From the NCBI GenBank assembly GCA_902728285.1, contig CACVBU010001138.1:1110906-1174905 (forward strand): a stretch of 64,000 nt of DNA. Direction: 5' to 3'. Positions within the stretch are counted from its first letter, which is position 1. Every line of letters starts with the position of its first letter. Shown here piece by piece: positions 14,866-64,000 of this stretch. The notes beneath the pieces are model-generated. The model was not told where the DNA came from, made no database searches, and saw nothing but the letters and a program-made list of their open reading frames with translations. Origin of the DNA: Clytia hemisphaerica (Eukaryota; Cnidaria; Hydrozoa; Leptothecata; Clytiidae). Both the position numbers and the translations under genes were made by a program.

Positions 14866-15719
14866 CGCTATTACTGCACATAGGTTGCTGCAATTTGCTG
14901 CTTCTTGCTTGCTAATACAAATTTCACTGCAAAGATCTTGCTGCTAATCGCGTATCCCAAAGGCAGCACATGGTACTGTTTGAAATGGACGGCCAAAAGA
15001 ATAATGAGTGTAGAGATTTTTTAAGAGGTGTCTGTAATCGAGGAAGCTCTTGCAAGTTTTTCCATCCGCCAGATGCAAATATAATAAAGAAAGAGAACAA
15101 GCTTCCTATTTGCAAGGACTTTCAAAACAAAGGCTGCGAGAGAAAAATGTGTAAATTTTTGCATATTTCACAACAAGAGGAGGAGGAGTATAATGCTTCT
15201 GGTATTCTTCCTGCACATGGCGGTCGGCCTGACAAAGTGCGATCATTAGGAATGCCTGGCGGTAGAGGAGGAGGCCCTAGGCCTATGCACCCTCCAGCTT
15301 CTGATGCGTGCAAAGATTTTATGAACGGTGTTTGCAATCGCGGTAATCGATGTAAATTCAGTCATATTAATGAGGAAAGTCCAAATTATGGCAAAAGGAG
15401 ACGTAACGATTTTGGGGGTCCAGGTGAGTACATGGGTGGTGGTCAAGGCCAAGGACATCTCGCGGAAGATAATGAAATGCTACGACGTAAAATTTCAGAT
15501 TTGCAAAGACAAGTTATAGACTTACGACAAATGAATGACACTCTCTATGAGCAAAATAGCAAATACAGATTGCAATTGCGAGGAGGTCCAGGAACAGCTC
15601 CTCCACCAGCAACAGGCCAGGGTGCTAACCCTGCTTATGGCAGCGGGTCTTTCGCAGGTCCTGCAGCTACAGGAGGGGGTAATCAATATTCATCGTTTGA
15701 TGGCTACTCTAAATTTTAG
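14866..15719 (+). CDS. ZC3H10: ZC3H10-like CCCH zinc-finger protein
   Basis: The coding frame is 14970-15719, 249 residues. The exon appears to start at 14866 after a T-rich tttacag acceptor, so 14866-14969 is 5' UTR. Three CCCH fingers are visible: C14-C22-C28-H32, C48-C56-C61-H65 and C114-C122-C128-H132. Fingers 1 and 3 share 'C+DF...VCNRG..CKF.H', which is characteristic of ZC3H10. A KRRR basic patch follows finger 3, then a coiled coil at about residues 164-203 (NEMLRRKISDLQRQVIDLRQ) and a Gly/Pro-rich tail. Vertebrate ZC3H10 is longer, as I recall over 400 residues, the difference being low-complexity tail. The expected role is RNA binding, including microRNA processing; this is known for the family, not seen here. 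A second in-frame Met at 14985 is an alternative start. Confidence 0.85.
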
Positions 15720-23187: not shown

Positions 23188-24293
23188 AAAATTTAAACAT
23201 TTTTCTATATTATGTATTGTATGTTAGTTTTCTCAGTCATTTTTATTTTTCTTTCTTTCCCGTGCAGACGGCTGCACGGACTTTAGGTGTCGAACCGGGT
23301 TCTGGGCCTACTTTTTGAAAATTTTTGTTTTTTGATACTTGTATTTTGTCGTTTGTCTTGTTCTTGTCTCTTTGAACTTGTTTGTTTTGTCTGTTGTTTC
23401 ACCCCTTTTTTGTTTCTTTGTATTTGTGTGCAAGTTTCTAATACATTGAGTGCTTCAAAAATATAAAAATTGAAAATGGTCTCATCAAAAGTCTTTAAAA
23501 GTTTAAAAGTGGTTGTTTGAGCCTACAGTATACACAACAGCCCAAATGTTATACGTACATTTCAGGAAGATGTCGAGAATTTCCACAACCAAAAACAGCA
23601 CAGTGCTCACGTCCACCCATTTGAAAAGTTTAATCAACAATCAGATAAATTTCAAAGTTAGTAAAGGCTTTAATATCTTCAGATTTATTTCGCAAAACTT
23701 CAGAAAACTGCTTGATGTGAAGTTATTCGCTTCAAGATGGCCGATTTGTTTTGATCGCGTCCCCGAATATATCCCAGAATGCTTTGCGCGAAAAAAATTC
23801 ACGGAAAGCCGATATCGTCTATTAGTTTCTTGTGTTCAATACACATCAAAAGAAATTTTTCTTTTACCTATAAATTTTGATGGAATTCTTCAATCTTTAT
23901 AAATTTGTATCGTTGGAGAGATATTTGTGAGTGGAATAATTTGAAATAAAAAAGTATTTTAAAAATTCCAAAAAAGAGACGAAAATAACGAAGAAAAAAA
24001 TTAAGATCTTGTAGAAAAGTGGCTATAACTTTCATTTTCACAGGAGAGATTCTTTGATCTTAGGAGGTCATCACTGTGAAAAAAATTCACTAACACATTT
24101 ATTCAATATAAATCTAAGAAAAGTTTGAAAATCTCTCATTAATCTCTCAAGTTATGATACAAATTTAATAATTGATTGACCCCAAAAAACTGCAGAAAAC
24201 AGCGTTTTTAGACGTCAGTCAGCCAACAAAAATCATAAAAAATGAAATACGTTTATACCTAAACTACTTATAACTTTGTTTGATATCTTTTAA
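23188..24293. other. Intergenic, no gene supported
   Basis: T-rich stretches at 23230-23420, then AT-rich sequence. One open frame at 23513-23902 has no motif I recognise and no strong splice context. Confidence 0.35.
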
Positions 24294-24832
24294 CAGTCAG
24301 GAACAGTCGCCTTATTAGGAGACGCCTCCTGATTAGGAGACCCGTCTCCTAATCAGGAGGTTCCGGGTGTAATTATCTCGTGAACGAGCAAACTGCGCAT
24401 GATTTGATTGCTCCCAATGGAAAGAGCACAAAAAATTGATTCCATATGGTGATTTTCAGAAAAATCCACCGGTGGAATCAATCACAATTCTAATAATCCA
24501 TAAGAACCAATCAGAAGTAAGAATCTGTCTTCTGAACAAAAGCGTCTCAAAAAGAAAAATGGCGGACATGAAAAAAATCAAGAGGGGCTTCCTTGTAGTG
24601 CTTTATATTAGGATTGTGATCGATTGCACCGAGAAATTTTGATAATTTTTTTAAAACTTTACCAATTCGAGGCTGCTCTTTCCATTAAAACTAGTTTCAA
24701 AATGCGCGGAAAAGCCTAAAACCCTTAAAATTGGGATCAAAGTTTTATGTCTCCTAATTAGGAGACGGGTCTCCTAATCAAGCGACCCCAAGCGACCTAC
24801 ATGTCTCCTAATCAGGCGACTGTTCCTGACTG
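24294..24832. mobile_element. Non-autonomous DNA element with TTTAA duplication
   Basis: 539 bp with inverted ends CAGTCAGGAACAGTCGCC and GGCGACTGTTCCTGACTG, flanked by TTTAA at 24289-24293 and 24833-24837. Inside the ends lie repeated palindromic blocks 'tctcctaatcaggag' and 'ggagacccgtctcctaat' in both orientations. No coding. Superfamily uncertain. Confidence 0.65.
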
Positions 24833-25157
24833 TTTAACTGAATGATTATATTTGAGAAATTTTATAAAAAATTCGTCTATGGGCCGCTTCGCTCCCCTCA
24901 AGATACTTTGCAGGGTTAGGGCACCTTAAATAAATGGACTAATTCTCACGTGGGCTTTTTTCACGAATTAAGAGTCTGATGTTTTCGAGCGGATTCACTT
25001 GTGACTTTAGATGCCACAAAAAATTTGTTCCTGTACGCAGCAGAAGAAAAACTGGATATTTCCTCAGAAGGAGTATAAAAATATACTCAGGGTGAAGAGT
25101 AACGTGCGTAACTTTTTGTGGGATAAAAAATAGATTAAAAAGAAACACCGTGGACAT

Positions 25158-25544
25158 TTGTGTCCTAATTGTATTGAAATGGGGCAAGGTGTTCGTGCTA
25201 AAGAAACCAAGTCTGGCGAGAATGTACTTATAAACTTAGACGAGTTGAAAAGTGACATAAAAAAATACATAAAAACACTGCGGAATCATGAAGTGTTGTT
25301 TGATCTGCTGACCTATAATCCAAAATTTTGGCTGAAATGTCGTCCAAAGTCTGTGCTTTTATTTTGTGACAAACTTTTTGGTGCTAAGGGTAGGGTACAT
25401 GTACGGCCTTCATGGGCGAAAGTTGGTCCTTCCACTTTCTTCCTGCTCAATTCGGTATCTTCACGGTTAACGAGATGTAAGACAACGACCAACATTTTTG
25501 GTAGACTTTCCCCTGGAGGCTGCTCTCAGCATATAGTCAACTAG
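25158..25544 (+). CDS. Unrecognised open frame, possible upstream exon
   Basis: 128 codons beginning CPNCIEMGQGVRAKE and containing a charged helix (LDELKSDIKKYIKTLRNHEV) and a Trp/Lys/Cys stretch (YNPKFWLKCRPKSVLLFCDK). The codon composition looks protein-like in the first two thirds. No family is recognised. It precedes the multi-exon gene at 26656-30167 on the same strand and could be an early exon of it or a separate relic. No convincing splice sites pin it down. Confidence 0.25.
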   Translation: MCPNCIEMGQGVRAKETKSGENVLINLDELKSDIKKYIKTLRNHEVLFDLLTYNPKFWLKCRPKSVLLFCDKLFGAKGRVHVRPSWAKVGPSTFFLLNSVSSRLTRCKTTTNIFGRLSPGGCSQHIVN

Positions 25545-26655
25545 CTAAAGGAAGAGACTGCATCTCCACTTTTGTCACTGCCACGTGTCGACTTTAAGGC
25601 CATGGTGGACAACACACAGAAAATTGGCAAAACTTGGCAACTGAAGTTGGCTTCGACCTAGCCTGGATATCCAGCCCGTAAATTTTTTTTGATTTTGATA
25701 TTTCTTATGTTTACGGTCTGGTTTACCTAGATCGTCTGCATTCTCATTTGAGGATGATTATGCGGATATTCTGATTGGTTGGTCCAAGCGAATCAGAGAT
25801 CTGAATGGTGGCGCGCACATAAGAAATTATGCAAACCGACTTGAAGTGTTCGCCTAAATAGTTAGGTGGACAGCGCGGGCGCTCAGCAAGGCGCATACGC
25901 TGCTATGCAAATCTCCCTGACTTTTCGTCTTCGAAGCAAATAACAATAGAATATCTAATTATCTCCCTTGGGTGTTTGAAAACGCTTCCAAATAAAAATA
26001 ACAATAATGGTAGGGAAGAAGTGGGAAGATCAAATCATGGGAATTTTTAGATGTTCTTGTTGTTTTCTTTTCAATTACTTGCTTAGATATTCTTGCTTTA
26101 ATCTTCTTAATGAATTGGTTGCATTGTGTAAAGAACTAAAAAGGTATATCTTTATTTTGCTTCAATTCTTCTTTTCTGTTTGCCAATTTTGTATTGCTGT
26201 TTTTGGTTGGATTTTGGAAAAAAAAATTCTCCAAAATTCACTTTGCACTTTTTGTTTAAACAGACTTTCCACCACACTTTCTATATTTTATGGTCAAGGC
26301 TGCCATTCTAAATTGATTTATCACTGCTGGGGTACCATCTTGAAATCATGCATGTCATTATGTGCGTATATTCATTTTCAGCCATCGGATTCATGCAGGA
26401 AAATCTGAACCAAGCTCTATAATTTTAGAACTTTGTCTGGCTGAGGTAAAATTTTGAGCTTGGATTTCCTTTGACCGCTCCGTCGAGTGTAATTACATGT
26501 CATGTTAGTACGAAGCCCTCTTCAAAGTCGACGACAGTAAAGTTCAGTGAGAAAGACCCTCCCAAAAAGTGGGTCCATATGTCATCTTCCTTAAAGGATG
26601 TTAAAGATGTCGAAAAGACGAAGGCATGTTTCGGAAATTGCGAGTTCAATTTCTA

Positions 26656-29600
26656 GAGAAAAGGCTCGCACGGACTGCTGATACAAAAACCAAGGACGAA
26701 GATGTGGAAAGGTACACTGACGTTCTCGCGAAGGCAAAGATGGTGAAATATTGCGTGGAATGTGCTTGTGAAAATAACAAAAATCACCATGTAAAAGCGA
26801 CTTTTAAAGCACAAGTAAATCCTAAATGAATGCACCTTGAAATAGGCTATGATATACGGCAGGTCCAAAATGCATAAAACATAATGCATATTGCATAATG
26901 CATAATGCATAATATTTGAAAAATATCAATTTTAGAGGCTATAATAAGGAGAATTTGAAAGGTAATACTTTCAACTAAACAAATATACCATTTTCTACCA
27001 GAAAATAAAGGGTACAAAGCTGTAAATTTGAATTTTGGATGATGAAGAAAATCCATGATCCACTGAAAATGCTTGTCGCCATTTTGATTTTCATAGTTGT
27101 ATTTTACAGAACGTAGTATAGTGTAGAAAAAACACGAAAATATCTCCTCCGTATATTACTTTTCTAACTCGAAAACGTAAATTTTATAGCAAGATCTTTA
27201 TATTCTGGGTTTTCTCAGAGATCTTTTCAAACAATTGCTAATAAATTTCAACGTGTTTTTCCCTATATCCAGCCAATATAAATTAAAGAGCTTCATTCGA
27301 AAGCTAGATCAAAGAAAATAGACTCTTTTTACATTCGAATGTTTATGTGTTTACTTTTTTTGAGGAAGAAGTGGAAAACCATTCTGATCTGTTGTCTTCC
27401 TTCTTATTATTTATGCTGACGGAAAACCCTTTGTTGTTATTATTCGAATGTTTTCTCTTTCGTTCGGATTCGAAAAGTAAATATCATGTCTGGGGAAATC
27501 CCTCTGATTGAAATGTTTATGTACTTTTATAAAAGAGGTTTTCGCGGTTTTAGCCTCTACAAAGGAGAGTTTTAGAAAATATAAAATCGTTCTGTAAATT
27601 ACACAATACTATTATGCATTATGCAATATGCATTATGTTTTATGCATTTTGTACCTGCCGCTATGATATATGAGATTTAGAAAGAATAATGCATAGCAAC
27701 TGCCAAAGAACGCTACTCATACTACTACACTCTAGTAAATGGGCAAAGAGTACTACCAATTTGTTTTAGCAAAACTTTGAAGGAATATCAGCGGGACTGA
27801 TTTAATTATCGGTTGATTTATGTTATTATTACTTTTCAGATATGTAAGTATTGCAAAAGCGAGCTCGAAGGATGCAATGTGACACTTGATTCGACAGGAG
27901 AACAAGTTATTTTAGGAGATTACTTTTCGGGGATTTGCGCATCTGGAGTGGAGAAGCTTGAACTTCACATTGGCGATCCTAATTTTGCAAATCCCAAATC
28001 GTATGAACCAGTATCGAAACTACTTCGTGAGGTTGGCAGCCGGGCTGGTTGGTACTTCAGTGAATTATTGGCAGTAGACCCTCAAAATCATAGCCTATCT
28101 ATATCCTAACATGCGATTTTCGATCACTTTGTACAGGTGAAAGATGTGCTGTGACATTTGTCCGCACTATTTAATATTTGCATTGACTGTCGTCACATAT
28201 CTTTGAACTTTAGTAGCTTTAGTCTGGCTCTTTCCCAATCTTTAGGTATTAAACGTTATCACACTGGAACGCGAGAGTGGTTGTTATTGGAAGTTGATGG
28301 AACTATATACAGCATGGTTATAGAAATGATTTTCTCCAGTTTTGTCTGTGAAGTTTGTATGCGCTGTTTTCATGGCTCACATATGTTTGATGTAAGTTTG
28401 AAAGTGTCACGAAGTTATTTTGGGTTTTGTTCTGTTCACTATGGAATACCTCAAGCAATGACATCTATATCTTCCTTACTTCTTACTGTATACATCTAAC
28501 ACGCGTGCTCTGCCTTTTCGAATTTTCAAAATTTTCATTTGTTGTTTAGTTCTACTGTGTAAAAAGTACTGTCCACATTTAAACTGTAATAGGAACACGA
28601 TTGCGACACGGTTAAAAAGAAGATGACGAAATCCCAAAATAAGAAACGTATTCGCACGCGCGAATTCGACTGGTTGGTTCCAATAGTGGGGCTATTGCAT
28701 TTTGAAATGAACATATGTAATTGCCAATATGAATTGGCAGGTAATATGCTCTCTGGTTTAAGGCATGCAATGTTACTCAATGTAAATAACATAGTCTTCC
28801 ATGTCACTGTATGTCCACCATGGTGATATTTAATGCTTTTTCAATTTAGGTGTTTTGCAAAAGAATCTATATAGAGCTTGGGTTCAAAACAGACAAGGCA
28901 CAGGCAATGATGCATGCATGCAAAGACCACCATAAAGCTTGGCAATTTGCTTTTGTAAACGAATCCTTGGCTTTGTATGAAAAGACAGCTCGCCAGCATT
29001 CCATTCCTGACTATATGTCCTGGTTTATTGATCAACCAGATAATCATCGTTTTCTTAGTTCAATGATGCTGGACTACCTGTTTTCAATCATGGTCCTCTG
29101 CGTTAGCGTTCGGAGAAACTGTTTTGATGGTTAATTCTTTTTGCATATTTCAGATCGTTTACCAATTCCTTTACTTTCTACCCAAAACCCACAATTTTGA
29201 TTTCAATTGCTTATGAAAGGAGTATACTACAACATTTTGCATATTGTTTCAATATCTTTATGAAGGTTACCTTTGGAAATGATACCACGTAATAAGTAAA
29301 ATGATCTTGCTCTGTTGCATAACGTATTATATTAAATACTTGATTACATGAATTTTGATCGCCTTAGAGAAGTTTCGTGACCTATTCTTTGTCCGCCACC
29401 ACCCCTACTACCAAAAGATCACATACCATCTCAACATTTTGGAGACAATGTCTGAAGGAATTAAAGAGCTGTCTGTGGAGCATATGGCAGGCAGTATTTC
29501 TGGACTGAAGGACTCTGCTCAGGGTGGTAAGAAAAGTCCATTCGTCTTAAGTTTGTACTCTTCTTTGCTACCATTTGGTAGCCATTTTCAAGGAACGGAA

Positions 29601-30167
29601 TAAGTCATGGTCGCACTGAATAAATATAGTGCACACTTAAAGCCAATGGAATTGAATTCAATTTTCATATGTGAAGCGTGTTATTCATCATATTTATGAC
29701 TTAATGTAATGTTTCTTATGGATACACTCCGGTTTTGCAAGTAGTGGCGGAAATCGGGGTGTTTTCGTGGAAAACATTACATTACGTCTTCAATATCACG
29801 AATAAAGACAGAGCGAATCAGCTACACTTTTATGTTAAATAAAACTACTTTCTTACACGCTTCACCTCTAAATTGTCATGCACTGCCCAGTCCAAAACAC
29901 ACAAAACTAACATACTTTGAAATTATTTGATATGGTTAAGGAGATGCCATCACGGAGGAAATTAACAAATGCGTGAAGTCGTGGCTTCCTGCCGATGGTG
30001 TTTCGACTGAAGAACATTGGACCGAGAGTACACGGTTGCTCCAAAATATTGACAAGGTAGTCCAAGCATGTTTTAAAGTATTTACATATGCCCCGGTTCA
30101 AAAAGTATGCCAATTACAAGAACCTAGTTGGACATTGGTCCGTGGCTCATGTGCCCAAGGACGATAG
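26656..30167 (+). CDS. Multi-exon gene of unknown function, probably from a multicopy, transposon-like family
   Basis: Exons: about 26656-26814, 27840-28026, 28246-28391, 28850-29129, 29368-29526 and 29941-30167 (stop). All internal junctions have GT/AG, and the phases join exactly (0, 1, 0, 1, 1). This is strong evidence for a real spliced gene. The second exon has ICKYCKSELEGC and the third has FVCEVCMRCFHG, a possible Cys-rich finger with KYCVECAC at the end of the first. Later come KFRDLFFVRHHPYYQKI and DAITEEINKCVKSWLP, then GVSTEEHWTES. From memory, unverified, similar RHxxYxxI ... WLPxGxxTxxxW modules occur in uncharacterised multicopy cnidarian proteins. The 5' end is unresolved: an open frame at 26471-26655 reads plausibly, but a one-base frame change near 26655 separates it. 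The largest intron holds the element at 26857-27660. A decayed gene converges on it at 30441. Confidence 0.6.
26857..27660. mobile_element. Non-autonomous element with 10-bp target duplication (Mutator-like?)
   Basis: 804 bp with about 50-bp inverted ends starting CGGCAGGTCCAAAATGCATA and differing by one base near the tip. The ends contain strings of TGCATAATGCATAATGCAT. It is flanked by identical CTATGATATA at 26847-26856 and 27661-27670. A duplication of 9-11 bp is typical of Mutator-like elements. It lies wholly inside an intron of the gene at 26656-30167. No transposase coding was seen. Confidence 0.75.
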
Positions 30168-30440
30168 TTACACGGCCACACCATACTAACAGCCTCAAAA
30201 AAGCGTGATGAAGATGATGCCTACTTTTGCTTCGCAAATTAATTCGGAAATATTAATTGTGATATGATAGAGCCGACCAAAGCAAATTTGTTTAGAAAAA
30301 CAATCTATGAAATAAAATAAAATATAAATTCAGCATATATACATAACATACGAGTACAACTAAAACCAACAACAAATACAACATAAACAAGTAAAGCTAA
30401 AACCAACGCCAAAAACAACATAGACATTCAAAACCAAAAC

Positions 30441-31255
30441 CTAAGACCCGCTAGGACCAGCCTCCCCAGGATCTTTGTGTTTAGGACAAAAGTATTTAAA
30501 CCTATCAAATCCTTTTTCATCAGTTATGTGCCTATTTCCAGTGCAGCGTAGATGTTTCCATGTGTTGCATGGTGCTTCCTCAGTGCCTCAAGAACACCCA
30601 ACCGACCTATTTTGGATCTTCCCGTACAAAACCGCCATTCTCTTGTCCTCTGTTGACAGAAATACCACCTTGCATGTTGCACAGTTATTCTGTACAACCT
30701 GGTTAGCTTTCAGTGTCTTTTTTGCACATTTCTTCGTTTTCTTTGAAGAGGGAAGTCCGACAATGGGTATCTCTGTTCGGATTTTACAGCTCCATTTCGG
30801 GGTCGACCTAAAGACAGGTATTGGTGAATCATGGCATCGTCTGTCATTGTTTTTTCTTGGAACAACTATAGTTAAGGAACTTTTGCATTGGGGATGAACC
30901 AGGGCCGTAAAAGTATGCAAGTGCACAAGAAATCGGCAAATGAGTCAAATATGTTACCTCAAGTCGTTCGCAATTTACTGCGCTGGGTTGATCAATCTCT
31001 CCGGTCTGAGTTTCAACGTCATTTAGCTGCAGAGAGAACGTAAAGAATACATAAAAAACTTTGTTTGACCTTAAGTAAAATGGCATCACGTACTTAAAGT
31101 GGATTGATTTCCATGAGATTTGTTTGTGCGAAGATGTAGAAAACGTCAAAGTTAATCACATACCTCCATCTGTTTCTCATCATACAGAATGTTTCCGTCG
31201 TTGTCCCAAACCTGCCACCGGTTGGTAATCTTAAAGTTAACCGCAATGCCTGATT
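30441..31255 (-). pseudogene. Decayed spliced gene ending in a PHD-finger-like domain
   Basis: Exons 31255-31164, 31026-30958 and a last exon from 30865 join in phase (SGIAVNFKITNRWQVWDNDG..., then LNDVETQTGEIDQPSAV..., then LFQEKTMTDDAMIHQYL). A GRPR AT-hook-like motif and the basic segment QRKRRNVQKR follow. At an A-run near 30718 the frame must shift by one to continue as NNCATCKVVF...VGCS. A TGA then sits where Trp is expected, and the same frame goes on with APCNTWKHLRCTG and FKYFCPKHKD to TAG at 30441. The pattern C..C ... C ... C.TW.HLRC ... CP.H looks like a PHD finger. It is tail-to-tail with the gene ending at 30167, 273 bp away. Function is probably chromatin- or DNA-binding; the copy is broken. 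Confidence 0.55.
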
Positions 31256-31302: not shown

Positions 31303-31972
31303 TGCTTTTTGTGACCATGAACATATAAATGACTGGACATCTATCTTTTATTGTCTCTTTGAAGCGAGCTTCGTTGCCGCCTCTATTTCAAAATTGGCAT
31401 GAAAAATCCGACAATATTCCGTAATAATTTTATTTCTTTGAATTATTTAAGTAAAAGGGTTGATAGAGCTTGAACATTACTCCTTATGCACAAAAAAATT
31501 ATTTTCGAATTTTTTAACAAGTTTGCAATATATTTTATCAACATTTTCAACTCTGAAATGCAAAATTTCAACTGCGTGTATACTTTTGAATCCCTTTTCT
31601 CTTGAAAAAAAATAGCTTGCCAAAGTTGAGAGCCAGTGTCATAAGAATATCTAAATTAGAATGTGACACTTTCTAAAATTATTAGACACTTTTAAGTCAA
31701 AATTTAGAAATATTAGTCGGAGTTTTGACAAGCTGACGATGATTTTGCCTCTGTTATCTTTGCTATGATATAGATAAAAGACTTGAGAAGAGTAGAACAA
31801 CAGAGACTTTTGTCGAAGTTTTGACGTTGTTAGCAAGGTATTCCCAAGTGGTATATCATCAAAATCTATTGTTTCATTTTATCCTTTTAACGAGGCGGCA
31901 ACGAAGCTAGGAGCCCTTTCTACAAAAAGACAAAGGAGATGGATGTCCAGTCGTTTATAGGTTCATGTTGTG
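31303..31972. repeat. Inverted-repeat element, arms about 75 bp
   Basis: The left arm (about 31303-31383) and right arm (about 31892-31972) share 'gaacatataaatgactggac' and its imperfect complement, plus a perfect 17-bp block AGCTTCGTTGCCGCCTC at 31367-31383 with its complement at 31892-31908. The interior is AT-rich. A short open frame starting in the right arm at 31939 is therefore not called a gene. Confidence 0.5.
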
Positions 31973-34665: not shown

Positions 34666-34797
34666 AGTCTCAACTTTTCTAGATCAAAAGTCATAGACGA
34701 TTTTGTGGTTAAAAATTGATTGAAAATAGGGAATTTCCCCACAATCTGAATAATTTATGCAAAATTATAGCACTTTTGATCTAGAAAAGTTGAGACT
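34666..34797. repeat. Perfect 26-bp inverted repeat, 80-bp spacer
   Basis: The arm at 34666-34691 is exactly complementary to 34772-34797, with the central AGATC palindrome included. No target duplication or coding. It could be the core of a small foldback element or a stable RNA hairpin if transcribed. Confidence 0.5.
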
Positions 34798-37412
34798 GAT
34801 ATAATACATTTTTTGCTCAGTTTGAAGAGCTCTAATACGTGGTTTCAGTCTTGTTTGATTATCAGGTACTAGCCGGTACCCGGCGTCGCATGCCGGTTAA
34901 GCTGTAGCGCTGAACGCACTGACAGTCCTTTGGGTGTTGGCTTGAAAAATGATCAAACCAATAAAAAGATATCTTCAAAGTTTGACTCTAACCCTCCCCC
35001 GGAGATCTTTTTCTCGCATTAAATACGGCGTCCAGTTTTTTACAATTTGAGAAAATGTCATGCTAAAGAGGAGTGAAATGTAGAAATGACAATTCTTTAA
35101 GAAAAGGCGGGAAAACCACAAAAAATGGTGCAACTTTGTTTTTATCAGATTTAAAAAGATAAATAAGTCAATTCTAAATTGCTTTTTTCAAACCCTTGTC
35201 ATAACTTTTCGAAATTAAACATGTAAAATGACGTACAAAGTTTTTAACAGTATCAACCAATTGAATGTTTTTAATGAAGAAAAAGATGGACTAACAACTT
35301 CTTCTCTTGCTTTTTATCGCCCTTTGCTGTTATTGTTCGACAAACTTTTTAATTTTTATGTTTTGATTTACATTATTTGAAATGTTCTTTTCTATAAAAG
35401 AAATTTGTTTTGTTTTGAAAAGAATTCGAATGTCATTAATAAATACGATCGTTAAATGGCTTAAATACCTTCGATTCAAACAAAAGAAAAGAAAAAACAG
35501 GATCGGCCAAAGCTGGGCAGAAATTAAAATTACTAAATGTAGATGGGCCTTTAATTTCTAAACAAAGGCTGAATAAAGTCTTAACCATGCTCTATTCGAT
35601 CTGTCAATCAAAACAAACTTATCGAGAACAAAACATTGCTTGCGAAATCGAAAGTGTGCAAATGGCGCGAATCCAATAGAACAAATTTGTGGAGCAAGAG
35701 ACTAAAAGTCATAATTTTAAAACACAAACAAAGCGAAAACGAAAGTGGTGACACACAGACACACAAAGCACCGCTATTAATATATAGAAGTTATGGCATG
35801 TCTCAAAAACCTGAAAATTACCATAATTTTTAAAGGCCATTGGCCGGCAGAAAATGAGCAAACCAATGATTTGCTACGAAGTGGAAAGTGTCACCCATTG
35901 TCCTCGCGGTGAAGAGTAATAAGCACCACCGGCACTGGGTCACTGAGACAATGGTGTACCGTTTTCCCACTCTTCCCGTATTTAAAAAAGAACTCTTTAA
36001 CAGACATAAGATACACGCGAGACAGGGGTGTGTTGCTTTTCGTAAAAGTAGCCAAAAACATGTCATCATATACGGCTAATAAATGCCATAAAATAATTAA
36101 AGTGTCACCTGTCGTTGTTTATTTTTTATTATTCATAATTTTCGATTTATGCATAAACTTCGTCCACTAAACTCACAAACAGACTCACTATCACTCTACA
36201 CCAAACAAAAAAGTTTTAACAGAGTACGTTGCATATTTTTCAATATAAAAATATTTCATATTTCTTTACAACATGATGTACATAATTCTGTAAATTTTTT
36301 GTTACATTGTATTAATTGATTTTCAGTTCATTTACTCCCAAGATAAATACTTCGCACTTCTAACAACTTTTGTTTTGATAAAACAATCATCGTTCGTTAC
36401 AATTCATTGCACGTCGTGTTTTAGACGATTCCAATTTCAGATAACTTGAGCTCCACCGCAGATGATTGAAAAAGTCAATTCTTCGTGTGCTTTAACTTCA
36501 CAAAGTTCGCCAATCCTGGCGGTGATAAGATTTATATGAGAGTAATCGTCACGAAAAGCGCTAGTAACATATCGAAAAAAGGAGATTCCCAAGATTGGCG
36601 AAGGTATCTTAAATCTTGGTTAAAGAAAATCTCTTTTATCTTTCTTTTTTTTCTATTGTGAATTGCTTACGTCAAGGTACTGCCAGGATCACAGACCCGT
36701 TGGGACCCACTACAAAATTTTGCTGAAACTTTTGTCTCCGCTTGGAAAATGCCCTGTATAAAATTTCATCCTCACAGTGGGAGAAGCTCCACCGGGGCTG
36801 TGACACTGTGACAGGGGTAGGGTTATCTCTCTTTGTACGACTTCACCAGATTTTCAACGACTAGACTAATTGGAGATGTTTAGAAACGATTGGAAACTGG
36901 ACGAGCTCAAATCAATCTTCTTCAAATACATGACTTGAAGTTTTCGTTCCATTTTGAGATTATTTTTAAAATTTTGTGTTGGTATTGGTATTTAAAATAA
37001 TCACTTTCAGAATGAAATAATTTCGTTACAGTAACCTGAAATTGACGTTTCCATACAAGACGTTTTTTGACCTTTTGAATGTTATGAAATGAGACGGATC
37101 ACAAGTATTTTTTTACCTAGAATATATATTCCCAATAACCAAATAACCAAAAGTTGGTTTATTTTTGGTTTAGATGACCTGAGATCAGATTGTGATTGTT
37201 TTCTACCCACCACGCTGAAGCTCTAAAGGGATGGTTGAAAACATACAATCTGACGAATATGCAATCTCGAAATCGTAAGGACCGCGTTCGTCTAAAAGGA
37301 CTGAGGGTGACAACAAAATTGCATGATTGTGTTTATGAATAGGGCGCCTTATCAGTTTTTGACTTTCTGGCGCACAACAAGATTCTTGTTGTAGGATTTT
37401 CCGCGGGAGGAC
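34798..37412. other. Intergenic, no gene recognised
   Basis: AT-rich. A segment near 36660-36830 with 'tccaccggggctgtgacac' resembles 'ttccatcggggctgtgatgc' at about 32507, suggesting a dispersed repeat. Open frames are short and without motifs. Confidence 0.35.
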
Positions 37413-37421
37413 TATTTTCCT

Positions 37422-38856
37422 TAGCCTAGTTAACTAAGCCCGTATTCACAAGGCTAGGACACACGGCTTATGGCAATATAGCATTTCGGCGCTTTAAAGA
37501 TTTTTTATATTTACGGATTTTAAGTTTGCCTTGGAATACTGGCTTAGGGAAAGGGCGCATTCATAATATGAACGCAGGATTCGGTGAGCTTCTGATTGGT
37601 CAGAGTGGGTCACGTGGTAAAAAATCGGGAGTTTTCGTGAGCGATAGAAGTCTATAATTATTTTATCAGAAAACGAGTAGAAGAGGATGGGACTTATTGA
37701 ATGCAAGATCTTTCTTCGATTATATTATGATGTGAGACTATTGCCATGAGAGAGCCGAGAGATATATTTGGAATACTGTATCAGAAAAAGTTTTCAAGAC
37801 CTGATCCCGACCTGATGGTGCTTCTCTTGTTTATGGGAAGAATTGAACTGATGAAGAAAAAAGAATGCTATTCGTCGTAAAGACAGCAAAAGTTGCTTGT
37901 TTCCAGAATGCCAAATAATAAAGTAAAGATTTGTGATTGAACATTGACTATCGTATGTGGCAATATATAAGACTTGTACAGATCCTATGCTGTAGTTCTG
38001 TATTCTGATTGGATTGCATGACATGATATTGTATTATACTGTAATGGATAGATGATAGACAGTTCTTGATTTTTGACTGGTTGTGGTTTCTTGTTGTTTT
38101 ATGAATTTGAGACTTTATGCTCGATTTTACAGACAATGACATCTTTCGTTTTCGAAGAACATAAAATTGTCGGTGCTTATTTTCAGTGACAGCTTTACGA
38201 ATTCAAGACTCAAGAAAATGTTTTTTTTGGGGGGGATTGATTACATTGTTTTGTATACGGTATTTTAGCCTGCGAGTCTAAAGTAATTTTTATTTATTTT
38301 GTTGAAGGTTATTTTTATTATGAGCTTTGTGTAAAAAAACATACAAAATTTTATGTCAAATCACAAAATTATCACTCAAGAAACAAATTTGTCTCTTGTT
38401 GACTTTTCCATAAAATACGAACATAACTTTTTTTTTTAAATGAACAAATTTTTCCTTCACTCTCCATCGGCACACTTTACATAGAATTTAATTTTATATT
38501 TTACAAAAGGAGCGCATAAACTGTAAGACGGAGAGTTTGTTTATCTAATCTTACAATAAGAGCCAATCAGAAGATAGAAAAAAAGACAAAATAAAAAAAT
38601 TCTAAATAATGTTTTGATATTATGTTCTGTGTGTGGTGTGATTTCATATTTTTGATATGAAACGGAATTAAGTCAACGACGAATAATTATGCAAATTATG
38701 TGAGTTTACGTTATCCCTCACCGCGAAATTTGAATTGTCGTTGTTGTCAGTTGATAAGCTACCGAGTTTACTGTCCCTAAGCTAGTCATTCAGTCACAAC
38801 TTAACCATCAGATTTATCCAAGTGACTGAATCAAACTAGCTTAGATTTCTAGGCTA
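37422..38856. mobile_element. 1.4-kb non-autonomous element with 9-bp duplication (left copy)
   Basis: 1435 bp bounded by TAGCCTAG...CTAGGCTA and flanked by identical TATTTTCCT at 37413-37421 and 38857-38865. Outer inverted ends (TAGCCTAGTTAACTAAGC and the complement of CTTAGATTTCTAGGCTA) match at about 13 of 17 positions. Near the right end, CTAAGCTAG...CATTCAGTCAC pairs with GTGACTGAAT...AACTAGCTTAG across a short loop, making a strong hairpin (about 38778-38848). No long coding frame. An inverted copy occupies 58493 to the window edge, so it is a repeat family. The 9-bp duplication points to Mutator-like mobilisation. Confidence 0.75.
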
Positions 38857-43374: not shown

Positions 43375-43821
43375 CTAGTATCCTTGCTCTTGAATATGCT
43401 TGCGGTAAACTGTATTGTCCAATACTTTTGAACTGTGATTGACAAACTCCTTGGATTGGTGGTCGATGAAGCTTTTTAACGAGGTAACAAACTCCTTCTC
43501 TTGATATTGTTGCCATTCTTCGATGGCATTGTTGATGCTTTCGTTTGGCTCTGTTTCGGTAGGCCGTGGATGTTGATGAATCTGTCAAAGATTAATTCGT
43601 GTGATTCATATGGTCTATATTTCAAGTGGCACAATAGCTTCATGATGGAAAATGAGTATTTATGATGACCGAAGGTCTTGAAATATAGTAATGCCATACG
43701 ATAACATTTGATGGTTCCCAACTCATCACCCTGTCTGTGTGCATCGTTTATGTTTCCCAAAAGAAGATTCAAGGTGAGAAGGGCTTTATGGTACGATAGA
43801 AGAAAGTTGCAACCATCGTAT
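43375..43821 (-). pseudogene. DUF6589-type gene fragment, frameshifted
   Basis: The exon starts at 43821 after a ctcaatacag acceptor: YDGCNFLLSYHKALLTLNLL, then DELGTIKCYRMALLYFKTFG, HHKYSFSIMKLLCHL and ELIFDRFINIHG. The order 'GD...I+C+....L.+FK..GH.KYS.....LL.......E....+RF+N..G' matches DUF6589, a domain common in cnidarian and fungal transposon-like genes. Near 43575 the frame must move by one to continue as EPNESINNAIEEWQQYQEKE and end in TAG at 43375. Without that shift it would be an intact exon. The catalytic role of the family is not known to me. Confidence 0.6.
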
Positions 43822-45670
43822 CTGTATTGAGAGAAAAATGATAAATAATGAGTTGAATTTGATAATCAACATAAGCAAGTGGGTGGTAGTGAAATTAAAT
43901 CACAAATCACAAAATTGAAATAGGCTCTATCATCATATTTGAAAATGAATCAATTTATCAGAACTTACTGTAGTGTTTTCAAATCATAAATCTAAATATT
44001 TCTAATATTAATACCTGTTATATGAATAAGTATTCATCTCGTGCATGTGATGATCTTTTAAGTTGGCGAATAAATTTGGGCATTCTTTGCAATAATAGTC
44101 CATGAGCTGGAGGTCAAAATGGGCTCAACGAGTGTACCGGATAAATCATATGTAAAAAGTTTCCAAATTTTATGTAGAATAAGAATTTCGATGTCAGCAG
44201 GGTCAAATTAAATGGAATAAGGATTCTGTGACGTCACAATGACACCTGGTGAGAAAAAAAGTTGTGAAAATTTGTCAGACCAAGATTCTACTTTTTGGGA
44301 AATATCTCGGGAATTAAAAGTGGTATTGCTACGAAATTTGGAGCATATGTTCATAACGAGGTGACAATTACATTCAAAGAAGAAAAAACCGAAGAAAATC
44401 GTTTATGACGTCACCAAGGCGTGCCGAAAATGAAAATTGAGGAAAAAAGTAAAATTTTGCCTAAATTTCGATCAAAAGTTAGTGTTAACTAGGCCTGTAC
44501 CGCTCAAAATACGAGAAAAACACAATTTACCACCTATAATCTCATATTACGAAGTAAATACTTCAAAATGAAGTATTTGTTGGGTTTTAAAGGGGCACCA
44601 AAGCATCAAAAATAATTTACGCACATTTTGATCTGTAAATCAGCATTTCCCTAAATTTTGTAAATATTTGAAAAACTAGTCAATTATTGTTCCAAAAAGC
44701 AAATTGATAACTAAAGATTCCTAGATGAAAATGTAAAAGAGTTTAATATATTTTTCAAAAACGGCCCTATGACGTCAGTAAGGGGCGCAAAAATAGAAAA
44801 AATTCAAAATCTTGCCTTTAACTTAGTCAAAAGGTTGAATTCACCTCACCTTAAAGAATTTATCACTTACTTAGTTAGAATTGCTCCATAATTATTGTTC
44901 TTATGAGGCGCCAAACCTTCAAAAACATTACGCTTAATCTTCTCGTAAATCAGAATCTTCCTAATTTTAGTTAAGATTTAATAATGTCAGAAATTTTTAA
45001 GCTATAAGTAGAATCTTATGAAATACCAGATTAAAATGTAAAAATTAGGAATTTTGAAACTTATTAAGGTTAGTTAAACTTGGTAAGGGTTAGCAACAGC
45101 TATTTTGTAAAAGTTAAAATGGAAAATTAGCAGAGGTTTCAGATTTATTAATTGTCCTCGATATCACTCGATATCGACATTCTTTATCACTTTCAACCTC
45201 TTCGTCGTCTTGATCGTTCTCTTCATTATCTCGATTTGCACAACCACACGCATCACAGCATCACATTGCACTTTACAGTCACAGGTTACGAGCGTCAGGA
45301 CCTAAAAATAAATCGATTATTAATAATTAGTAAAATAAAATAATTTTGATTTCAGATATAAGGGCTTTCTAGAAAAAAATTTTCCTTTTGCTAAACACTG
45401 AATAAGGCTGGGTTTTATCAGAAGATAAAATGATAAGAAGTGACTCTTTCCAGTTTTAACTATGAGATGGCTGTGACAAGTATGAATAACTTTACATCAT
45501 CAACAGTCAATGAAATCATCAAGATAGGGTTAGAAAAATATCATAACTTGAAAAGAGACGCTCACATTAAATTAATTATACTCATGACAGATTGCATCAA
45601 TTACGCGTAATTATATCCTTTGTTATCTCATGAAAAGTTACTAGACGTAGAATAGTATACTAAAAATTAC
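43822..45670. other. Noncoding repeat-like stretch rich in TGACGTCA
   Basis: TGACGTCA occurs at 44229, 44406 and 44770, embedded in blocks such as 'ccaaattttatg', 'gggaaatatctcg' and 'gtcaccaaggcg'. Their wording resembles the foldback element at 15.9-16.9 kb and the stretch at 56.9-57.4 kb. Probably a diverged member of the same non-autonomous family. No gene seen. Confidence 0.35.
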
Positions 45671-48014
45671 CTCAGCCAATGCTGGATTGCAAGTCATCCA
45701 ATTAACGAACAGACCACCATCATCGACTCCCCAACCATGATTGGATGGATCACAATCCAAGGATCAAGACACATTCTCCATATTCTTGCTTGATAGTTTG
45801 CACGTTTGTTATGTTGCCGTAACACGTTTTGGCAGGGTGGCAATGATTCTGGTGGTAATTTATCATTCTTCCTGCAATAAATGTTGTATCTCAGGTCATC
45901 AATTGATATTCCCAATTCCAAAGAATTCCCATACATATGGCTGACAAAGGCTTCGAGGATCGACATATTCTCTTCGTCCCAAGTTTAATTAAAACCCTCC
46001 TATCTAATCGTTATTTCATTAAATACACGCACTCTTTTTATAAAAATATACTTCATAAGATTATTTATATTGAGATTGGCCAAAAAATTAAGAATATGGC
46101 AAGAATATCACCATCATGGCTTTGGCAACGGAACCTAAGAATGTCATTTTTTGTCCCAAGTTGTACCAAGTTCTGCAAAGGCTTTGACGTACTCACTTTT
46201 CTGGATCATGACTTTCAGTGGTTTGATCTTGTGACGTCCGGAAAATGCACTAATCGAATCGTAGCTAGTAAAACGATGAAAACCAGGTAAGGCTTGCAAT
46301 AACATTTCTTTGTTGAATTTAAAGTCATCGATGCGCGTGAAGTACGTTTCGCAGACCAGATTCAGATCGACAAGCCTTTTGTGATCTCCAGATCCAGTGA
46401 GGATGAAAATGTTACAACCAATTGCATGTAGATTTGAAGCAGCGAGAATGAATACATCTGTATCACGGGTAGAGATAATGATGTTTTGATATTTTGAGCT
46501 TGCTTCATTTGCGTGCAACAGCTTTCGTGTTCACGTCTCAGTTGAACCGTTGAGATACATAGTCTTGTTATTCAAAAGATGTCGTTTTGTTTTCTAATCA
46601 TTCAAGAAAAATGTAACCAACGTATTCTTGAATTCACCAGATGAAAGAAGCTGGCCCCACTGTTTGATTGGTGCTGTAGAAACGATTTGCTTTACAATCA
46701 TTTCTCCAGTAGATCTTCTTTGACGTTCGATGTCTTTGATTGAGGTGTCGAAGTAGACGTCAAATACGACATCAAGACGAAATGCTGACGGGGAGCCATT
46801 GACGATTGCTTTCAGGAGCTTAGTTGAAAATTGGTCAAATGTCAACCCACTGGACTTGAATTGTCGAACATAAGCCATACCATCAACGATGAAAGCATGG
46901 TCTTTTTGTAGCATTTCAACTGGGACAGTATCTCCTTCAACAGTGTGTAAGAATTTTGACTTTGCTGTTTTCTTAAGGGTACCATCTGGCTCCGATAGCG
47001 AGAGTGGTAATTCAACGAGAGGGAACGAGAGCAACTGTTTGAGATCAACCACTTGACATGGAGCAAATGCTTGAAAAAATAGATTATCTCTCCTGGTCGA
47101 GAAAAGTCATACATTTTGTCATACGGACAGATATGTCCATCTTCTCCATATCAATACGCCATGACCTTTGAACACATCTGTTGCTTCTTGATTGTTTCGC
47201 ACCAAAAATCTCACGATATTTGAAAATGTAAGATAAATAAAGATAAGACAATGTGAAGAGGGTACAAACCGGCATAAGTAGATAAGGGAGGGTGTAGATC
47301 GTTGACCTAGCCCAAGCTTTTGTCAAATTTTTACTGTTAATTCCTTAGCCACCACAGCAATTTATTTCCACTTCACTCAGGTACGGTTATTGTACACCTT
47401 TATATTTCTTTTAAATTAAAGATTTCTGTTTGGTTTCTAAAGCCGGCTTTCTCACACTTTCCGACGACAAAGTTAGCGCGTGTAAAACTTTAGAACAGTA
47501 ACGTCTCTCTGATTGACTCATACAACAAGATCTTTTGGGATGCTAGAAATGTGATATTAAATATTAACATTTTCACTAACCTGTAACATTCGTGTATCTT
47601 CCATCCATTATCTGGCACAAACATATCGTCAATGCTATGTTCGGGATATAGATTGATGTACATTTCTTTTAGCCAAGCATGGTGAAGCTCTGACAAATCG
47701 TGCTTTTGAAATTTACGAGAGAAGAAGATGCCGTTGATTTTGTTTCACTTCATTGAAGCTACATCGTTGAATTTTGAAGAGAACAATTGGAAGTTACAGA
47801 AATTTTGGATAACGATTTCGTTTAAAGATCCGCGTTGTGCAAGTGAATGATTCAGGGAACTGAGACTGGAAGAAAAGTATCGTAATATTCATCGGGAAAA
47901 CTAGTAGAAGTGACGGCAGAATCTCTGTAAAGCCTCTTCATCATTTGCACTTGTATGTTTTTCTTGTTAGTTGGATATGAACCAAGGAGCCCTGTTAATA
48001 TCGCTATGCGGAAA
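45671..48014 (-). pseudogene. Decayed FEN/XPG-like (PIN-fold) nuclease gene of transposon type
   Basis: Minus-strand segments in order: FRIAILTGLLGSYPTNKKNI (48.01 kb), HHAWLKEMYINLYPEHSIDD to a donor at 47580, and MEKMDISVRMTKCMTF (47.1 kb). These are followed by DLKQLLSFPLVELPLSLSEP, AFIVDGMAYV, RLDVVFDVYFDTSIKDIERQ, LLHANEASS, STRDTDVFILAAS, LPGFHRFTSYDSISAF and finally LPPCQNVLRQHNKRANYQAR with IWR and NHGWGVDDGG before a donor at 45670. The VFD....SIK..ER, LLHANEA (EADTR-like) and DTDVFIL blocks mimic the acidic clusters of FEN/XPG nucleases. Damage: stops TAG at 46594 and TGA near 46531, frameshifts near 45755, 47100 and 47860, and the Penelope element inserted at its upstream edge. The catalytic Glu that precedes LLHANEA is replaced by a stop. 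The family is multicopy in cnidarians as I recall; unverified. Confidence 0.6.
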
Positions 48015-48254: not shown

Positions 48255-48575
48255 CTATGTTACACCATTTCTAAAAAGAATTAAACGAGCAGAGTCGAGT
48301 TGGTCATTTAGACGTGGTCTCTTAAGGGCAATTAATGCGGCTTCCAGATTTTTTCTTAATCGGGTATTCGTGGGAGCGTTTAAGATTATTTTCCATAAGA
48401 ATTCGTGGTCAGGGTGGTTTTTGAGATGCTTTGCAGGTTCAGAGTTGTGCTCAAAGTTATTATGTTCTGACCACCTGGTTTCAACATTACGTTGGGTTTC
48501 GCCGATATAATTCAATCCACAAGAACACCTGCCTTCGTAAATTCTACACGCTGGGTGTGGATTTTTATCCTTCAA
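48255..48575 (-). CDS. GIY-YIG endonuclease domain of the Penelope-like element
   Basis: The frame reads [20 protein letters not shown] (GIY-YIG core), then R..EH in [10 protein letters not shown], a zinc-finger-like Cys pair, and [14 protein letters not shown] near the C-terminus as is usual in this nuclease family. It is separated from the RT frame (ends 48675) by about 100 bp where the reading frame changes and a stop intervenes. The original single polyprotein has therefore lost a frame here. Confidence 0.8.
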
Positions 48576-48674
48576 GTTAAATAACTGTTTTACTTTCTTT
48601 GTTGCCCATTTTATAGCAAAATCAAGTCGTTGGTAAAAAACTTCAATTTTTCAACGAATCGCTTTGCAAGTTGT

Positions 48675-49970
48675 TCATTGGTGTCTGAAAATGGAACCTC
48701 CATGAGTATGAATTTGCGTTTTTCTTTTGAAAAGGAAATCAGGTATGATGCAATCATTAGTTAATTTCGTTTCAAAATCTTTGATGACGCTTTCGGTGAA
48801 TCGAATTGGGTAACCTGCTTCTCTAAACTTTTCTCTAATAATTTCCTTTTCTTTATTGTAATTGTTACTGATTCTATATGATCGATTTAGGTCACCATTG
48901 ATCGTATTACGTTTATACCTTTTAGGCATCTTAGAAGACCAGTGTGTGGGATGCTTGTTCTGTTTCCTGTGTACAGATGTTATAACTTGGCCATTTATCA
49001 GTGTTATATCAGTGTCCAGAAACTTAGTTGGTTGGGTCTCGATTGTAAATCGAATATTTCGGTGGTAATTGTTCATTGATTGAAATAAGTGATCTGGTTC
49101 GTTAATCTTTCTACGTGTGATAATGTCGTCAACATATCTCTTGTAGAAAGGTGGTTTGATCGATTTGACAATTTCGGTCTCCATCTTGGTGAGGAAGATG
49201 TTGGCAAGTGTTACCGATAGTGGTTCACCCATTGTACAACCGTCAGATTGCTTGAAAAAACACGATTGGAAGATGAACGTACTATCAGCAGATAACTTTA
49301 GTAAAAGTCGTTTCATTACCAAACGAGTACATAGTATTGGCAACTTTTTATGTACATATATTTGATCTAGGATATAATCAACTGTATCATTTATTGGAAC
49401 GTTTGTAAACAAAGATTCTACATCATACGAGACATATTCTTCGTCTAATGTGATCGGTGACTGATTTCGAATCATTTCTGGAAAATCTTGTGTGTTATTT
49501 ATTATATAATCATTACATGCGTATAACGGTTTTAGGTATTGTGAAATTACTTGTGCTGCATTATACATGCAAGTGCCCGTTTGAGCGATAATCGGTCTAA
49601 ACTTTATAGATTCGACGGTTATGTCAGAAATATTTGTAAATTTATGAGTTTTTGCTGAACCATAGAGCTTAGCTGGAGCATTTGAAGTTGGACGCATCTT
49701 TTCATAGTGCTCATACTTGCGGAAATTTCGATACAGAAAATCTTGAAAACGTTTCAAATCATTTAAGGTGTTATCGTCTGGGTGTTTGTAAACTCCTTGA
49801 TCAATTCCTTCATTTATCATAGCCCGTAGTTTATTTACATAGTCGACTTTGTTCATAACCACAACGGATGAGTCTTTGTCTCCTGGTATGATAACGATAC
49901 TATCATTATTGATGAGTCTCTTTAAATTAGTGTAAGTGTAATCTTTTGAATCATATATATTTTTCGTGAT
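48675..49970 (-). CDS. Penelope-like reverse transcriptase
   Basis: Open from within the right terminal repeat (KNIYDSKDYTYTNLKRLINN, then DSIVIIPGDKDSSVVVMNKV) to a stop at 48675, about 430 residues. Motifs: PAKLYGSAKTHKF, KFRPIIAQTG, VSYDVESLFTNVPI (RT motif A), DGCTMGEPLSVTLANIFLTK (motif B), KRYVDDII (catalytic YVDD) and TKFLDTDITLINGQV. This is the Penelope/PLE order, distinct from LINE RTs. The frame is uninterrupted over its length. The N-terminal part expected in complete elements is missing, replaced by the inverted repeat. Confidence 0.85.
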   Translation of the reverse strand: MTKNIYDSKDYTYTNLKRLINNDSIVIIPGDKDSSVVVMNKVDYVNKLRAMINEGIDQGVYKHPDDNTLNDLKRFQDFLYRNFRKYEHYEKMRPTSNAPAKLYGSAKTHKFTNISDITVESIKFRPIIAQTGTCMYNAAQVISQYLKPLYACNDYIINNTQDFPEMIRNQSPITLDEEYVSYDVESLFTNVPINDTVDYILDQIYVHKKLPILCTRLVMKRLLLKLSADSTFIFQSCFFKQSDGCTMGEPLSVTLANIFLTKMETEIVKSIKPPFYKRYVDDIITRRKINEPDHLFQSMNNYHRNIRFTIETQPTKFLDTDITLINGQVITSVHRKQNKHPTHWSSKMPKRYKRNTINGDLNRSYRISNNYNKEKEIIREKFREAGYPIRFTESVIKDFETKLTNDCIIPDFLFKRKTQIHTHGGSIFRHQ

Positions 49971-58152: not shown

Positions 58153-58798
58153 ATATAGGTGTAATCCAAAATTCGCTCTTCGAATCTTTGTTGAATATAA
58201 CTTGAAAATATGCTTTATCTAGCTATGGATGAGGCTTTCAAGAAAATTGGTCTCGGAAATCGCATAGAACGATTTTAGACTAAACAATAACACCTGATAT
58301 TGTTGATATTTATGTCACAGAGTGATTTTGAGGATGTACGTCTCACATATCGTGGATTGATAACCAAGCTTCGTGTCTTATGTTGCATTTTTGGTTCATC
58401 CCAACCTTAATAAAGAAGTATTGGTGTGTTGGGCACTTCAGTAGATACCAAAAGAAATTCTGGAAACTTTGAAGATATCTGATGGTTTTTATTAGCCTAG
58501 AAATCTAAGCTAGTTTGATTCAGTCACTTGGATAAATCTGATGGTTAAGTTGTGACTGAATAACTAGCTTAGGGACAGTAGCTTATCAACTGACAACAAC
58601 GAAAATTCAAATTTCGCGGCGAGGGATAACGTAAACTCACATAATTTGCATAATTATTCGTCGTTGACTTAAAGGGACCCTCCAGCCTTTTTTAAAGTTC
58701 CTCTCATATCACTGCTAGCATAAAAACATCTACGAAAACGTTTCTCTTTTCCCTCAAAAGCTCCACATAAGGAGATTATGAGCACTTTTTGTTTAACA

Positions 58799-61360: not shown

Positions 61361-61665
61361 TTTTTTTTGTAATTTTTAACCGGATGCCGAAAGTAATGGG
61401 TTGTGACGTAGATTGTTGTCACATAAGAAGTTGAAAAGCTTATTTTACAGTAAATTCCAGTGAATTGGACTGAGATTAGCAATATAACGTTTTCATTTTT
61501 ATTTGATGTTTTTTTTTCTCCCTTCAAAAAATGAAAAACCTTGTTTCTGAAGCTTTCATATAACTTCATCATTTCATTTTCATGGGTGTTTTGCGATAAA
61601 AATCACGGGAAATACGAGAACGGTTGCAATATATTTTGCCTTTGAATATAGTTCGAGAATGATAC

Positions 61666-62341
61666 GAGAAGCTTGCAGATTGGGCTCCAATGATAGTAAA
61701 TCATTTTTATTGGGCGGCACAAAATTGCAGCGAAAACGGAGAAGAGCTGACAGAGCGGTTTAACAGCGTGATTGTTCACATTGTTGACAGACACGAACTA
61801 GGAAACCACTACACAAGTTCCCCACCCAATGACAAATCACATCAGTATGATTGGCTAAAGGCAGGATCTAAACCACACGAAGCCTTGAAGAAGATTATCT
61901 TTAACGTGGAATTCCAAAAAGGTCTTCGCAAGCTCAATTTAAACGTCTATACAACACACTTGGAGGTTTTCCATGCACTGAAGATAAGGTACCTACCCAA
62001 ATCTATTTTTTTACGAGCAGGATAAAATGGAACGTGGTATGATGCTTGCTGCCTTAGACCACAACCTTAATATCAATAGGGAACAGAAGCAAACGATCAA
62101 AGAGGGAAAGTTAGTAGGGCGATTCAAGATTGCCTATCACAAATACTCCCACCGGTTTGTGGCAAAGCAGGTCAAGAAGGAGAAATCATACGACTTCCTT
62201 CGAGACATTGCTGTTCGATGCTACCACACAGTCGCAGATGGAAATAGGAAGTTCATGACGAAGAGAAAGCGGCTTTACGTTACACCTGCTGATAGGGCTG
62301 CTAGAAAAGAAACTATCGAACGCTCTACAAAGTTTTCCTGA
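61666..62341 (+). pseudogene. Kolobok-type transposase, C-terminal part
   Basis: Starts after a TGA at 61660-61662: EKLADWAPMIVNHFYWAAQN, then VDRHELG, YDWLKAGSKPHEALKKIIFN, TTHLEVFHALKIRYLPKSIF. In a T-run at about 62004 one extra T shifts the frame; the partner frame continues YEQDKMERGMMLAALDHNLN and FKIAYHKYSHRFVAKQVKKE to a stop at 62341. VNH..W ... H.LE..H....++.PK ... M..R..LA.+D.N is the C-terminal pattern I associate with Kolobok/THAP-type transposases. N-terminal THAP and the earlier catalytic residues are absent. Confidence 0.65.
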
Positions 62342-62382
62342 ATGGCAGTGAAAGATAATCAATAGATAGTTAGTTATAGTTC

Positions 62383-63835: not shown

Positions 63836-64000
63836 ATTGAAAGAAGCCACAACCAGTCAAAAACCAAGAACTGTCTATCATCTATCCATTACAGTATAAT
63901 ACAATATCATGTCATTCAATCCAATCAGAATACAGAACTACAGCATAGGATCTGTACAAGTACTCAATGAGTCCCATCCTCCTCTACTCGTTTTCTGATA

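Follow-up and report, generated by a model that had tools for sequence, protein, structure and literature searches.

A convergent pair of a DUF6589 gene and a PHD-like gene in Clytia hemisphaerica, possibly the decayed remains of a DNA transposon

Two multi-exon reading frames face each other tail to tail in a 64,000-nucleotide stretch of Clytia hemisphaerica DNA (contig CACVBU010001138.1, positions 1,110,906 to 1,174,905; the whole stretch is hereafter called the window, and positions are counted within it). The frame on the plus strand extends from 26,629 to 30,056 and that on the minus strand from 31,255 to 30,441. According to profile matching, the plus gene is a borderline-scoring member of the family DUF6589, and the minus gene, which ends in a PHD-like finger, is broken. 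Whether the pair is what is left, after decay, of a two-gene unit with introns, made of a DUF6589 gene and a convergent PHD-like gene and most likely of DNA transposon origin, is in our judgment evenly balanced.

The convergent gene pair is real. An earlier note, drawn up from the letters of this DNA, had placed a plus-strand and a minus-strand gene here at 273 bp from each other, and our analysis confirmed both points: multi-exon frames are present on both strands, and the stops (30,165-30,167 for the plus gene and 30,441-30,443 for the minus gene) are 273 bp apart. The guanine-plus-cytosine content of the plus-gene exons is 0.37-0.47 versus 0.29-0.38 in the introns; the corresponding values for the minus gene are 0.45-0.46 and 0.34-0.39. 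On the plus strand of 27,701-30,100, the longest stop-free spliced chain measured 661 nt over 4 exons, a length reached in none of 200 dinucleotide shuffles (mean 181 nt, maximum 575 nt), and the opposite strand of the same interval gave a chain of 196 nt. On the minus strand of 31,350-30,400, the spliced stop-free chain measured 338 nt over 3 exons, and 5 of the 200 shuffles reached that length. This chain search was automatic and required exons of at least 90 nt with good splice scores; its chains are not the exon models drawn below, in that the 69-nt minus exon is omitted and the low-scoring donor that ends plus exon 5 is unusable. All splice scores are given in bits and come from our own approximate matrices. 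The exons of the plus gene were modelled as follows (a slash marks the exon end).

26,629-26,814, plus strand: exon 1; start uncertain, with the frame opening at 26,605; cysteine-rich end VKYCVEC; donor CAA/GTAAAT (4.9); phase 0 into exon 2.
27,840-28,047, plus strand: exon 2; ICKYCKSEL...SRAG; acceptor TTTTCAG (4.5); donor CTG/GTTGGT (4.9); ends in phase 1, in phase with exon 3.
28,246-28,391, plus strand: exon 3; IKRYHTGTREWLLLEVDGTIYS...FVCEVC; acceptor TCTTTAG (5.1); donor GAT/GTAAGT (7.5).
28,593-28,740, plus strand: exon 4; DUF6589 core motif FDWLVPIVGLLHFEMN; weak acceptor; ends in phase 1.
28,850-29,129, plus strand: exon 5; acceptor TTTAG (3.7); weak donor ATG/GTTAAT (1.7); needs phase 0 at its start; in phase with exon 6.
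29,368-29,526, plus strand: exon 6; EKFRDLFFVRHHPYYQ...AQGG; weak acceptor; donor of 8.5.
29,941-30,056, plus strand: exon 7; DAITEEINKCVKSWLP...NIDK; in phase with exon 6; weak acceptor; if left unspliced, it runs to the stop at 30,165-30,167.

Five of the six exon junctions of the plus gene are in phase. Its introns measure 109-414 nt once an element nested in intron 1 is subtracted, and an AATAAA lies at 30,311, downstream of exon 7. At intron 4, the better donor, at 28,741 (CAG/GTAATA, 7.8 bits), breaks the frame between exons 4 and 5 (phase 1 versus 0), and the plus gene is therefore probably damaged. With the weaker donor at 28,782 (AAT/GTAAAT, 3.7 bits), the frame is open again and gains 14 residues. 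The claim of stop-free, in-phase joining of the plus exons thus holds with the weaker donor and fails with the better one; a stop-free in-phase gene is possible, yet it is not the best splice model. Two other models were set aside. An exon 2 lengthened to 28,136 has a better donor (7.6) but contains a TAA and breaks the phase, and a dynamic-programming gene model using this longer exon was dropped, as it demanded exons of 7 and 8 bp.

The untrimmed plus protein matched the Pfam profile of DUF6589 (PF20231) with 25.8 bits (expect value, E, 5.2e-6), and the version carrying the longer exon 2, with an X at its stop, with 25.7 bits (E 5.8e-6). A trimmed core of the protein reached 27.1 bits (E 2.2e-6); the gathering cut-off of PF20231 is 27 bits, and the trimming, chosen after the first result, decides on which side of it the protein falls. 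Two collinear stretches of the profile are matched, 129-157 and 309-382, with nothing matched between them. Exon 4 alone matched profile positions 126-156 (E 6.8e-4) and exons 6 and 7 joined matched 309-382 (E 0.0068). Weaker matches were obtained for exons 3-6 (E 0.01), exons 5-7 (E 0.039) and the segment spanning exon 2 through the early part of exon 5 (E 0.0079), and the reversed plus protein, used as a control, gave no DUF6589 match. The earlier note had recognised neither protein of the pair; this is no longer true of the plus gene, which the profile match places in DUF6589. The two collinear stretches and the trimmed core relate it to the family, from which it differs in that this copy looks decayed, that its untrimmed score lies just under the cut-off and that its middle is unmatched. 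Reading by eye gave LLEVDG, GLLHFEMN and TEEINK as candidate catalytic positions, and the VDG of exon 3 may be an acidic site. DUF6589 is named in no paper of the literature searched, which excludes most subscription papers and all preprints. A search of the same literature for PF20231 or for IPR046496, which we take to be the accession for DUF6589, returned one unrelated physics paper and nothing else.

Three exons were found on the minus strand, given here in the order of transcription.

31,164-31,255, minus strand: first exon found; acceptor CTCTTAG (4.5); donor GAG/GTATGT (9.1); has one leading base and needs an upstream exon.
30,958-31,026, minus strand: second exon; continues the phase of the first; acceptor TCTGCAG (3.8); donor GAG/GTAACA (6.8).
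30,441-30,807, minus strand: last exon; PHD-like finger Cx2Cx25Cx8Cx4Hx2Cx18Cx2H; in-frame TGA in the finger; phase incompatible with the preceding exon.

The second exon ends in phase 0, whereas the last exon requires two leading bases. Because of this phase clash and of the in-frame TGA within the finger, the minus gene is broken. A spliced minus-strand gene ending in a PHD-like finger had been described here: its exons and its finger are present, but its frame is not open and its PHD matches stay below the cut-off. When analyzed alone, the first half of the finger had no PHD match in Pfam, and the PHD-like piece retrieved nothing from the PDB at E up to 10. Since the frame of the plus gene is likely broken as well, the suggestion that one intact partner was kept while the other decayed is doubtful.

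DUF6589 was matched at one more place in the window.

43,479-43,865, minus strand: second, diverged DUF6589 fragment; PF20231 profile positions 276-348, E 6.4e-5 and 4.5e-5; possible additional exon at 44,011-44,124.

With more pieces joined, this fragment matched PF20231 with an E of 1.5e-4. In one Pfam scan, it was the one window protein out of ten to match DUF6589, and it lies about 12 kb from the pair. Since neither BLAST nor phmmer found any similarity between it and the plus gene, the 43-kb fragment is, as judged from its profile match, a distant DUF6589 relative and not a copy of the pair. No PHD-like relative was found beside it, and the pairing is known here from one instance; both points agree with the idea of an accidental tail-to-tail placement, within DNA rich in elements, of a decayed DUF6589 gene and an unrelated, decayed PHD-finger gene. 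We consider such a coincidence unlikely, given that the two stops are just 273 bp apart and that both genes are damaged.

Searches for relatives of the pair in viral contigs, by protein and by DNA pattern, found none, nor did those in phages and in plasmids. The pattern search returned a sole genome contig, whose frame, inspected by eye, we regarded as matching by chance; DUF6589 was not found in the genome of this contig (0 of 1) and matched, below the cut-off, in 1 of 14 control genomes. Neither of the two proteins matched NCBIfam (0 of 2), and Rfam gave no match at gathering scores.

Two nested elements have clearly inserted within the pair or next to it.

26,857-27,660, strand not assigned: 804-bp element in intron 1 of the plus gene; terminal inverted repeats of 50 bp with 98% complementarity; 10-bp exact direct repeat, CTATGATATA, on either side.
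31,316-31,967, strand not assigned: inverted-repeat element of 652 bp, immediately upstream of the minus-gene exons; gapped inverted ends CATGAAC..; TTGTGAC (7 bp) on both sides.

The terminal inverted repeats of the 804-bp element (CGGCAGGT..) are rich in ATGCAT. Between 22 and 36 kb, inverted repeats with E <1e-4 are found at 24,289-24,837, 26,857-27,660, 29,681-29,805, 31,316-31,967 and 34,666-34,797, none of which brackets the pair. The first of these is a 549-bp inverted-repeat element (CAGTCAGGAACAGTC..), apparently with TTTAA on both flanks. A direct pair of 29 nt (83% identical; 25,351-25,379 and 35,322-35,350) does bracket the two genes, and is probably due to chance.

A transposon origin of the pair is plausible, and we favor it because both genes look damaged, a DUF6589 relic lies nearby and many element remnants surround them. 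In a unit of this kind, the DUF6589 protein would act as transposase and would have an RNase H-type cleavage domain to which LLEVDG would contribute a candidate acidic residue; its G-x-x-H-x-E-M-N block and C-x2-C zinc ligands would belong to the same protein. The PHD-like protein would be a chromatin-binding accessory factor. That such a unit was mobile, that its plus protein was catalytic, that the partner had this role and that both genes belong together are presumed here. The earlier note had also proposed a mobile element, and the decay of both genes, the DUF6589 relative about 12 kb away and the abundance of elements speak for that proposal, whereas no bracketing inverted repeats and no second copy of the pair were found in the window.

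Several results weigh against this interpretation. Inverted repeats bracketing the pair were not detected: none of at least 20 bases was found in 20-40 kb and none with E <1e-4 in the whole window, in searches that are blind to ends shorter than about 20 bases. To this extent the searches agree, for inverted repeats, with the earlier note, in which no terminal repeats had been found. The splice sites of the plus gene are in part weak: exons 4, 6 and 7 have acceptors scoring below 3, and the donor of exon 5 scores 1.7. The untrimmed plus protein remains under the PF20231 cut-off (25.7-25.8 versus 27 bits), and in the Pfam scan exons 1-2, as well as exons 3, 5, 6 and 7 each taken singly, were without DUF6589 match. 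In the Pfam scans, the plus protein showed no match to a transposase or RNase H profile, and Pfam annotates DUF6589 as a "family of unknown function". The PHD matches of the minus protein are all sub-threshold in Pfam (E 0.16, 0.02, 0.013 and 0.012). Folds predicted without relatives were too poor to interpret, both for plus exon 5 alone (predicted local distance difference test, pLDDT, 64.4) and for the last minus exon (pLDDT 39.1). Finally, a search of the window with exons 2-7 and with the minus protein revealed no second copy of either gene (other matches at E of at least 0.62), and the pairing of a DUF6589 gene with a PHD-like gene is seen at one locus.

The lack of detected borders in the inverted-repeat searches would also be expected of ordinary host genes, or of a domesticated DUF6589 gene, that are now pseudogenes or whose splice sites are mis-modelled. 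This explanation, which we hold to be rather unlikely, includes the case of a plus gene that may have kept its function by way of the weaker intron-4 donor; it draws on the stop-free spliced frame obtained with 28,782 and on the ordinary intron lengths of 109-414 nt without the nested element. It is at odds with a minus partner broken in two places, with the frame break imposed by the better intron-4 donor and with the diverged DUF6589 fragment nearby.

Among known systems, the organization of the pair resembles that of RAG-like (RAG1L-RAG2L) transposons, in which, according to PMC7204232, a large recombinase gene and a PHD-finger gene converge tail to tail. The two share a pair of convergent genes, one of them with a terminal PHD-type finger, and that paper describes many intact RAGL pairs without detectable terminal repeats, so that borders may be undetectable there too (PMC7204232). 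It gives the PHD spacing of invertebrate RAG2L as Cx4-7Cx14-16Cx2-4Cx4Hx2Cx11-18Cx2C and the vertebrate RAG2 pattern as ..Cx2Cx22C....Cx19Cx2H (PMC7204232). The finger of the minus gene, Cx2Cx25Cx8Cx4Hx2Cx18Cx2H, fits neither of these two patterns, although its Cx25C gap and its Cx2H end are closer to the vertebrate than to the invertebrate one (PMC7204232). Pfam scans of both genes at E up to 10 returned no RAG profile. Exons 3-7 compared with the PDB at E up to 10 retrieved one chain, an unrelated decarboxylase, and no RAG or Transib chain; Pfam includes RAG profiles, and the PDB includes RAG and Transib chains. The three exons identified for the minus gene gave no kelch match. On the Pfam profiles, the PDB search and the lack of a kelch match, a RAG-like identity was rejected and is largely refuted; that the pair is the remnant of a RAG-like transposon is extremely improbable.

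We also considered the Academ superfamily of DNA transposons, to which the pair is quite improbably assigned. The G-x-x-H-x-x-M block of the plus protein may resemble Academ transposases, with a putatively shared G-x-x-H motif. The nuclease of AcademX is of XPG type. Academ is a superfamily of DDD/E transposases, as stated in PMC9587614. Target-site duplications are 9-10 bp long in AcademH and 3-4 bp in AcademX, and the elements carry a helicase (AcademH) or a nuclease (AcademX), according to PMC10045372. The 10-bp repeat flanking the intron-1 element would agree with the AcademH value (PMC10045372), but this insertion is distinct from the pair. Unlike AcademH and AcademX, the pair lacks a helicase or nuclease domain among the Pfam matches of the exons found.

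A tail-to-tail layout like that of the pair, of a large and a small cysteine-rich protein, had been reported for a putative Kolobok remnant at 61.7-62.9 kb. The likeness has slight support: a small cysteine-containing frame opposite the proposed remnant (62,649-62,867, minus strand) weakly matches P2RX7_C (19.3 bits versus a cut-off of 23.5, E 0.0011), whereas the large frames are without Pfam match. The proposed remnant has no sequence similarity to the pair.

Elsewhere in the window, a reverse transcriptase frame lies on the minus strand at 48,675-49,970 (Pfam RVT_1, E 2.5e-7). It is followed, within 48,255-49,970 on the same strand, by a frame that looks like a GIY-YIG domain, so that the element is perhaps Penelope-like. 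Three more long frames, similar to each other, appear reverse-transcriptase-like by eye. Broken frames without Pfam match occupy 45,117-47,106 on the minus strand (..ISTRDTDVFILAASNLH.., ..GFHRFTSYDSISAFSGRHK.., cysteine-rich tail) and may correspond to the XPG-like part of AcademX elements. The regions 37,797-38,782 and 63-64 kb hold common repeated DNA in opposite orientation, part of which is also present at 58.6 kb (translated matches, 58,567-63,995). A CCCH zinc-finger gene on the plus strand at 14,916-15,719 (zf-CCCH, E 2.5e-13) is apparently an ordinary host gene.

At present, the locus represents a decayed member of DUF6589, a known yet uncharacterised family. That DUF6589 is an unrecognised transposase, and the locus the relic of an undescribed two-gene transposon with a tail-to-tail PHD partner that arose independently of RAG1L-RAG2L, is a distinctly unlikely proposal. 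V(D)J recombination originated from RAG1L-RAG2L elements. If DUF6589 were a transposase paired with a chromatin reader, it would constitute a second, independent RAG-type two-gene layout, and the DUF6589-PHD pair would then provide a comparison for how such two-gene pairs arise.

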